Positions 24,618-26,609 of a DNA stretch of 44,778 nucleotides are shown piece by piece. The position numbers and the translations under genes are program-made. Below the pieces are notes generated by a model. That model was not told where the DNA came from. It searched no databases and was given only the letters and a program-made list of their open reading frames with translations. This stretch comes from Marine Group I thaumarchaeote. Its GTDB lineage: Archaea; Thermoproteota; Nitrososphaeria; Nitrososphaerales; Nitrosopumilaceae. Location of the stretch: contig JACASW010000007.1 of NCBI GenBank assembly GCA_013390785.1, positions 1 through 44,778 on the forward strand, in the 5' to 3' direction. The stretch's first letter is position 1. Each line of letters opens with the position of its first letter.

Positions 24618-25334
24618 GTGTCTGACAAGAAGGAAGAATCACAACCCTCAACACTTTCAGAAGCAGAAGCTGAACAAGCTCTAGCCAAAGCAGAATATGA
24701 GGCAGCCAAGGAGGAAGCAGAAGAAGCAAAGCCTGCTGACGGTACACTCAGAACACCAACAATTTCAGATGCCGTAGATGCATCAGAAGGAATAGCACAA
24801 GCTGAGGCTACATATGAAGCGGCGAAGGCAAAAGTTAAAGCTGCAAGAGAAGCATCAGAAGCTGCCTGGAAGGCAGAATATGAATCAATAAAGGCTGAAG
24901 CAGGAGAAAAAAGAGAAGCGGGACAATTTTCTGATAGACACAAACAAGATCGTATATTTCGAAGAGAGATGGGTGAACCAGAATTCTTCTTAATGGATAG
25001 AGACATTCCATTAACAGCTATACTTACGGGTGATGAAATAGAAGAGATTAGTAGTAAAGTCCAGACCCCAAAGGATCAAACACCACAATACAAACCAGAA
25101 AATATACTGAGCCCTGAGTTTGGTGGAGGATCAAATTATGAAACTGGTCTAACAGATTTAATTGAAGAGGCTAAACAAAAATTGGACAGGCTTTTGAATG
25201 ATCCTGAAACCAATAGCCAAGAACTTGAACTTGCCAAACTTGATCTAAAGAAATTACAATATCTGTATGATAACTATAATCTGGGAATGAATGTTTTCAG
25301 AACTGCTAAAGGCGGTAGAGACACACTTGAATAA
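24618..25334 (+). CDS. Unknown Ala/Glu-rich coiled-coil protein
   Basis: I do not recognise this family. The 238-residue protein has an N-terminal half (about residues 12-102) dominated by alanine, glutamate and lysine with heptad-like spacing, predicting a long helix or coiled coil. A more ordered segment follows (RIFRREMGEPEFFLMDRDIPLTAIL, about 112-136), then a proline-rich linker and a C-terminal helical pair (about 178-222). There is no signal peptide or membrane segment. The start is a GTG. It ends 13 bases before the glutamyl-tRNA reductase homologue, so the two are probably co-transcribed. Confidence 0.7.
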   Translation: MSDKKEESQPSTLSEAEAEQALAKAEYEAAKEEAEEAKPADGTLRTPTISDAVDASEGIAQAEATYEAAKAKVKAAREASEAAWKAEYESIKAEAGEKREAGQFSDRHKQDRIFRREMGEPEFFLMDRDIPLTAILTGDEIEEISSKVQTPKDQTPQYKPENILSPEFGGGSNYETGLTDLIEEAKQKLDRLLNDPETNSQELELAKLDLKKLQYLYDNYNLGMNVFRTAKGGRDTLE

Positions 25335-25347
25335 AAGGTAACATGAA

Positions 25348-26475
25348 TTGACTGAAAATAATTTCCAAATCATGAATGCAAGGATTACTTTTAGAAATGT
25401 TCCATTGCATAAGTTAGCAAATTTTTCATTCAAAGATGTACCTGCAGCATGTAAATCCTTTATAGAAAATGCTGATGCTTCAGAATGTCTAATAATACAA
25501 ACTTCTAGTAGAATTGAAGTTTTTACTGTTGGTGGTATGCAAACAGGAGAAATACCTGATGCAAGAAGGAACTTTGAAACAGATGGAACACCTGCAAAGA
25601 TACAAGGAAAAAAACTTAATGTAAGTAAGATCCTATCAACTTGGTCATCACTTGCAGACATGGACCAATTTGATCTTGATCACTGGGACCAAACTCTAGA
25701 GATTTACAAAGATGTTGATGTGTATGAACACCTTCTAAGGCTAGCGTGTGGTTTAGAATCACTAGTTGTTGGAAAGGGTGAGATCGTTGAAGAGTTAGAA
25801 AAAGCAATATCAATTGCAAAGGAGGCTAAAACATCAGGTAAAATATTAGATAAATTATTTGACAGCACTAGGCGTGTTGCAACAAATATTAGAGATTCTA
25901 CTGGAATTGGTAAAGATGTGGTAACAATGGGAGATAGAGCTGTGAAACTTGCTGAAGAAAGTATAGACAATGTTGGTTCTAAGAAAATTCTGCTTATAGG
26001 GACGGGAGAAACAGCAGGTCTAGTTGCTAAAACTCTTAATAAAAGCAATTATCCGTTTGACGTTACCAGTATGACAGTTGAACGAGCTACTGGTTTTTCT
26101 AAAACATTAGGTGGAAAACCAATTGATTTTAAAGATGTGATGATTGGTTTTGATAAATTCGATGTTATCTTTGTTGCAACAACTGCGGATACCTTTCTAA
26201 TTACATTTAAAAAAATTGAAAAAATTATGAAAAACAAAAAGAAAGGTACATTGATAATGGATTTATCTGAACCTAGAACAGTTGATGAACAAATAGCTAC
26301 TATTAAGGGAATAAAATTAGTAAATCCAGCTCAAATTAATGAGATGATAGCGGAAAATACGAAGAAAAGATTGAATGCAGTTTCTTCCATTGAAGAAAAG
26401 ATCGACGAAGAAATTCCGATTATTGAAGCAACTCTGAAACGTATTAGTGGAGAATCCTTAGTTAACGCTAGCTAA
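25348..26475 (+). CDS. hemA: Glutamyl-tRNA reductase homologue lacking the catalytic cysteine
   Basis: Homologous to HemA, which reduces glutamyl-tRNA to glutamate semialdehyde for tetrapyrroles. Conserved parts are IIQTSSRIEVF (49-59), HLLRLACGLESLVVG (128-142), LFDSTRRVATNIRDSTGIG and the nucleotide loop IGTGETA (215-221). Four things are odd. The cysteine nucleophile of the TCNR motif is serine (S53). Roughly 35 extra residues lie between this motif and H128. The usual ANRT segment after the nucleotide loop reads TSMTVERA. The protein stops soon after the linker helix, at 375 residues, without the usual C-terminal dimerisation domain. The TTG start is the earliest fitting; an ATG eight codons later (MNARITF) is an alternative. 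Confidence 0.75.
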   Translation: MTENNFQIMNARITFRNVPLHKLANFSFKDVPAACKSFIENADASECLIIQTSSRIEVFTVGGMQTGEIPDARRNFETDGTPAKIQGKKLNVSKILSTWSSLADMDQFDLDHWDQTLEIYKDVDVYEHLLRLACGLESLVVGKGEIVEELEKAISIAKEAKTSGKILDKLFDSTRRVATNIRDSTGIGKDVVTMGDRAVKLAEESIDNVGSKKILLIGTGETAGLVAKTLNKSNYPFDVTSMTVERATGFSKTLGGKPIDFKDVMIGFDKFDVIFVATTADTFLITFKKIEKIMKNKKKGTLIMDLSEPRTVDEQIATIKGIKLVNPAQINEMIAENTKKRLNAVSSIEEKIDEEIPIIEATLKRISGESLVNAS

Positions 26476-26524: not shown

Positions 26525-26598
26525 GGGCCGGTCGTTCAGCCTGGTAGGATGCGCCCATGGCATGGGTGAGGTCAAGGGTTCAAATCCCTTCCGGTCCA
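26525..26598 (+). tRNA. tRNA-Ala (anticodon GGC)
   Basis: A 74-base tRNA with acceptor GGGCCGG/CCGGTCC including the G3-U70 alanine identity pair, discriminator A, anticodon stem CGCCC/GGGTG with loop ATGGCAT (anticodon GGC) and T arm AAGGG-TTCAAAT-CCCTT. CCA is not encoded. It follows the hemA-like gene after a short AT-rich spacer. Confidence 0.96.
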
Positions 26599-26609
26599 CT
26601 ATTATGAAT

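Follow-up and report, generated by a model that had tools for sequence, protein, structure and literature searches.

Background

The closest described relative of the gene analyzed here is that for glutamyl-tRNA reductase (GluTR, HemA). GluTR catalysis proceeds through a thioester on a cysteine, Cys48 in Methanopyrus kandleri, and the enzyme dimerizes via its C-terminal domain (PMC3778395, PMC6399207). The cysteine is conserved in all GluTRs analyzed (PMC3778395). For N. maritimus, a published inventory of heme genes across the archaea records a single hemA, Nmar_0510 (PMC3004389). Also relevant is the epsilon subunit (AccE/PccE, PF13822) of actinobacterial acyl-CoA carboxylases, whose gene adjoins that of the carboxyltransferase and which supports assembly and activity of the carboxylase (PMC13118682).

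We analyzed a 44,778-nucleotide stretch of DNA (the window) from a Marine Group I thaumarchaeote of the family Nitrosopumilaceae. Members of this family rank among the most abundant marine archaea. The gene of interest, which we call P, occupies positions 25348..26475 on the + strand, starts with a TTG codon and encodes 375 amino acids; its neighbors C0 and C2 are described below. Our literature search found no paper that mentions this GluTR paralogue. As judged from the comparisons below, the Nitrosopumilaceae possess a conserved but unnamed protein descended from HemA. By the known mechanism it would be unable to produce the heme precursor, and it is encoded in a fixed pair with a protein that gene order connects to the key CO2-fixing carboxylase. 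We regard P as a putatively GluTR-inactive, repurposed member of a well-known fold family, located in a conserved gene module that we did not find described; the module is well supported.

Homology and predicted fold

P is a true homologue of GluTR by profile, sequence and predicted fold. It matches the Pfam families GlutR_N (E=8e-26) and Shikimate_DH (1e-22) far above chance, as well as the M. kandleri GluTR structure (PDB 1gpj; E=1e-31). When the AlphaFold model of P (pLDDT 83) is searched with Foldseek, the best matches are the GluTR structures 1gpj, 5yjl and 4n7r, and the top matches are all GluTR. At the level of the superfamily, P has the GlutR_N domain and a Shikimate_DH-type Rossmann domain with its GxGxxA loop. 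It thus shares with HemA (TIGR01035; 1gpj, 4n7r, 5yjl) the fold, the N-terminal catalytic-type domain, the Rossmann domain and the spinal helix, as well as the Q-T-x-x-R-x-E frame. However, what distinguishes the HemA enzyme is missing, i.e., the catalytic cysteine and the asparagine of its motif, the GExQILGQ motif and, in the window's copy, the C-terminal dimerization domain. The score against TIGR01035 (hemA) is 187.2 bits, under that model's equivalog cut-off of 209.55 bits. The preliminary description of this locus, as a GluTR homologue with QTSSR in place of TCNR and without the dimerization domain, is confirmed. P is also a warning against automatic annotation as "hemA".

Residues of the active site

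Residue counts in this section come from an alignment of 85 paralogues (P and its orthologues) and 57 canonical HemA copies. The catalytic cysteine is present in 57/57 canonical copies and in 0/85 paralogues. In the window, its position holds Ser53 (codon TCT, 25504..25506, + strand). Among the paralogues, this site is Ala in 57 of 85 and Ser in 18, and otherwise Thr, Gly, His, Asn or Pro.

The preliminary description took serine to be the nucleophile. That P is a working GluTR with serine, or else Cys47, as its nucleophile in place of Cys48 might be suggested by the presence of Ser53 in the window and near relatives, and by the conservation of Cys47 in 83 of the 85 paralogues. However, since the catalytic cysteine is absent from all orthologues and most have Ala at its position, serine can be excluded as the nucleophile of this family. 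Cys47 was rejected as a substitute, because it is also found in 49 of the 57 canonical copies, where the real cysteine follows six residues later. Moreover, a canonical HemA is encoded in the same genome (see below). We therefore consider a working GluTR of this kind very improbable. As a separate observation, the 1gpj chain itself reads QTSNR, with Ser at the Cys48 site, and is apparently an active-site variant; a comparison with 1gpj alone thus makes serine seem natural.

Other positions of the catalytic domain have changed as well. Asn54, Glu143 and Gln145 are lost in all 85 paralogues (position 145 is Glu in the window's copy). His128, the equivalent of the conserved catalytic-domain histidine (25729..25731, + strand), is present in the window and lost in 30 of 85. 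Nine residues, Q51, R55, E57, G218, T219, G220, S307, P309 and R310, are invariant throughout the paralogues, which have also gained new invariant residues, namely D71, R73, H112, D114, Q115 and D281. D71 and R73 belong to a P-D-x-R-R motif (25555-25569, + strand) in a paralogue-specific inserted loop (residues 65-87; 25540..25608, + strand), which has low confidence in the AlphaFold model. H112, D114 and Q115 lie in the stretch H112-W-D-Q115 (25681..25692, + strand), which is unconserved in canonical HemA, and Asp281 (26188..26190, + strand) corresponds to Pro in 56 of 57 canonical copies. The insertion, which is 18-28 residues long, had been estimated at about 35 extra residues before His128; its presence is confirmed, and it amounts to 28 residues relative to the canonical HemA of the same genome, and to more relative to M. 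kandleri.

In the Rossmann domain, the nucleotide loop GTGETA is kept (25999..26016, + strand). The segment after this loop was correctly described as changed: in the window's copy, SRT has become SMT and TAP has become TAD. The arginine of the SRT motif is found in all canonical copies, whereas the corresponding position 242 of the paralogues is R, M, K, L or Q. Since this position is unconserved, NAD(P) binding may have drifted as well. As judged from the alignment, the pattern among paralogues is one of loss of the GluTR reaction, with its Cys-thioester nucleophile, and gain of a new constrained site, in that the active cleft has been remodeled to the new invariant residues; it is not a pattern of decay.

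Canonical HemA, origin and selection

The same genome encodes a canonical HemA of 417 amino acids (G000:C24:31372-32622) with QTCNR and a full C-terminal domain, which scores 329 bits against TIGR01035, above the cut-off, and adjoins a siroheme-synthase-like gene. This intact copy would serve the heme/B12 work, and its presence implies that P is a paralogue and not the lineage's working enzyme. Of the two alternatives in the preliminary description, the use of a modified enzyme by the lineage is therefore not supported, in line also with the predominance of Ala among the orthologues. The other, in which P is a paralogue that has taken on a new function and may act with the coiled-coil protein encoded just upstream, is strongly supported by the canonical copy and by the gene pairing reported below. 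On this basis P probably has a new, non-heme job, and it is probably inactive as a GluTR; what that job is, we infer.

In a maximum-likelihood tree, all paralogues form one clade (100/100) nested in the family's canonical HemA, and monophyly of canonical HemA is rejected (p-AU 0.0013). This phylogeny indicates that P arose once, within the ammonia-oxidizing Nitrosopumilaceae. The canonical sequences nearest the paralogue clade belong to the window's own lineage (100/98; L053, L225-L229), which stand apart from the canonical copies of the genus-mates G019, G036 and G147, so the exact donor branch is not firm. We rejected gene conversion of P with its canonical counterpart in the window's lineage, as an identity scan found no breakpoint.

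Pairwise dN/dS is approximately 0.10-0.17 for P and 0.05-0.07 for canonical HemA of the same lineage, values that indicate purifying selection on P. These values also bear on the idea that P is a copy of hemA that is decaying as a pseudogene. Although such a copy would be expected to lose its catalytic residues and C-terminal domain, P has an open frame under constraint, new invariant residues and a fixed partner gene, and it is present in about 133 of the 200 family genomes searched with the window's protein as query. We regard decay as extremely improbable.

Named loci with P include Nitrosopelagicus, Nitrosopumilus, Nitrosarchaeum, Nitrosotenuis and Marine Group I. P is missing from eight whole genera (g5, g6, g7, g9, g11, g16, g17 and g22) and from part of another (g18). 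Because many ammonia oxidizers thus do without it, P is not essential to the CO2 cycle. Outside the family, an order-wide search gave no clear second hemA copy among the matches listed. One family member, G027 (1.3 Mb, 95% complete), has no hemA match, unlike all others searched.

The C-terminal domain

The window's copy of P stops about 77 residues short of canonical HemA, close to the 80 previously estimated, and the dimerization domain is absent. This absence had been presented as a feature of the protein. While it is real in the window, it is not a defining trait: several orthologues keep the domain, and its state changes at least 6 times on a tree of 21 rows, i.e., it has been lost repeatedly and secondarily. 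A tRNA-Ala gene lies downstream (26525-26599), but its position is incidental, because it is not conserved directly behind P in relatives. We rejected the possibility that an assembly error or this tRNA caused the loss of the tail, as relatives without the tail also lack that tRNA, and separate losses have occurred in several lineages.

The variable state of this domain is pertinent to the proposal that P serves tetrapyrrole synthesis as a regulatory subunit, namely a dead GluTR that adjusts ALA formation by pairing with canonical HemA or with a tRNA/HemL partner. Such a role would fit the retained GluTR fold, the retention of Arg55, Thr52 and Ser138 in substrate-side motifs, and those orthologues in which the dimerization domain survives. 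There is a partial parallel in the plant GluTR-binding proteins (4n7r, 5che, 5yjl), which are also non-catalytic partners on a GluTR-type protein; however, the plant GluTR is active and its binder is a separate protein, whereas P is itself inactive by sequence. Repeated loss of the dimerization domain argues against this proposal, as does the location of P, which was not seen near hem genes and adjoins C0, C2 and often a carboxylase. The new invariant residues, moreover, lie largely in an insertion that is absent from HemA. We consider this role improbable.

The upstream partner C0

The gene 13 nucleotides upstream of P encodes the long form of a coiled-coil protein of 238 amino acids that we call C0 (24618..25334, + strand). 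C0 directly precedes P at all named loci (80/80), and the same holds for 20/20 genome regions in a second set that overlaps the first, which settles in the affirmative the earlier question of whether this pair is conserved. The gap between the genes is mostly 0-19 nucleotides, and the wider gene neighborhood differs between genera.

C0 proteins linked to P combine an Ala/Glu-rich coiled coil with a module that ends in EPEF; in the window, this module (FSDRHKQDRIFRREMGEPEFF) is at 24927..24989 (+ strand). A module of the IFRREMGEPEFF type (EPEF) is present in 76/76 P-linked C0 proteins, as compared with 0/13 short C0 proteins scored, from a list of 28 loci. These 13 include the carboxylase-linked short forms of two genomes (G017 and G076, of genus g18) that hold both forms, with the short C0 by the carboxylase and the long C0 by P. 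In other words, P is always directly downstream of a long C0, and the extra module is absent from the C0 of P-less genomes. Comparison of C0 with solved structures gave nothing significant, and its structure model is poor (pLDDT 65).

Our preferred reading, to which we assign a probability of roughly 55%, is that P has been repurposed as an NAD(P)-binding protein that is complexed with C0 via the module; it would then be a pseudoenzyme or else catalyze an altered reaction. The proposed mechanism would consist of formation of a P-C0 complex through the EPEF module, binding of NAD(P) by P, an effect of P and C0 on the carboxylase discussed next and, possibly, redox coupling of P with C2.

Possible link to the carboxylase

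The C-terminal part of C0, its core (25017..25334, + strand), is homologous to a small protein encoded upstream of acetyl/propionyl-CoA carboxylase in all ammonia-oxidizing archaea tested. In P-less genomes the core stands alone, directly upstream of an operon of carboxyltransferase, biotin carboxylase and BCCP. Overall, it is upstream of the carboxyltransferase gene in 17 of 18 loci from several ammonia-oxidizer families, and it is absent from 8/8 genomes from seven other families of the order. In many genera, the carboxyltransferase gene follows P within 1.0-1.4 kb or at a distance of about 4.6-5.5 kb, and several genera have P placed between C0 and the carboxylase. The C0-P pair of the window's lineage is remote from the carboxylase: some 55 kb separate them in G052, and the carboxylase was not found in the window's own genome, which is 82% complete. 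On the basis of this synteny, P and C0 are possibly linked to the carboxylase, and the core is a candidate for an unrecognized carboxylase subunit.

The core resembles the actinobacterial epsilon subunit in being small and in adjoining the carboxyltransferase gene (PMC13118682). However, it is upstream of that gene instead of downstream, and it has no sequence match to PF13822; indeed, neither long nor short C0 matches any Pfam or NCBIfam family above threshold. By sequence C0 is not a member of PF13822, and we use the likeness only as an analogy. Short C0 proteins (L107-L114, L123-L124, L207-L224) and the window's core together make up a small helical family that is nameless in Pfam and NCBIfam.

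The neighboring oxidoreductase C2

On the other side of C0, on the - strand, is C2 (23629..24498), a ferredoxin-NADP-reductase-like (FNR-like) FAD/NAD oxidoreductase. P-less genomes of the family have at most one copy of C2, while P-holding genomes usually have two, one of them beside P. A second copy is present in 25 of 36 genomes with P and in 0 of 18 without; as these genomes are related, a Fisher p value is not a true probability here. The P-side copy keeps its flavin and nucleotide motifs.

Such neighbors raise the possibility that P catalyzes a changed reaction, as an NAD(P)H-dependent reductase or dehydrogenase acting on an activated substrate (a CoA thioester or semialdehyde) for which no cysteine is needed. 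The FNR-like neighbor and the carboxylase linkage are compatible with this possibility, and so are the retained GTGxxA loop and DLSxPR frame, the new invariant His, Asp and Gln, and the replacement of Pro by Asp281. However, P-less ammonia oxidizers carry the same carboxylase, which makes P an improbable candidate for a core reductase missing from the CO2 cycle; the lack of conservation at Rossmann position 242 is a further difficulty. We judge a changed reaction of this kind unlikely.

Returning to the repurposed partner of C0, a more specific and quite tentative extension, itself unlikely to hold in full, is that the C0 core is a fourth carboxylase subunit, and that marine lineages recruited the retired GluTR into CO2 fixation via the C0 module, along with the duplicated flavin reductase, where it would act as a regulator that responds to NAD(P) or as an electron-linked component. 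P thereby opens the question of carboxylase regulation through a recruited NAD(P)-binding protein in marine ammonia oxidizers.

The FNR-like gene was duplicated together with P (window, G036, G102, G052 and relatives). The only C2 found in the window's lineage is the paralogue beside P (C2b), which clusters with the corresponding P-side copies of G036 and G102; this lineage seems to have lost the ancestral C2 and kept the one beside P.
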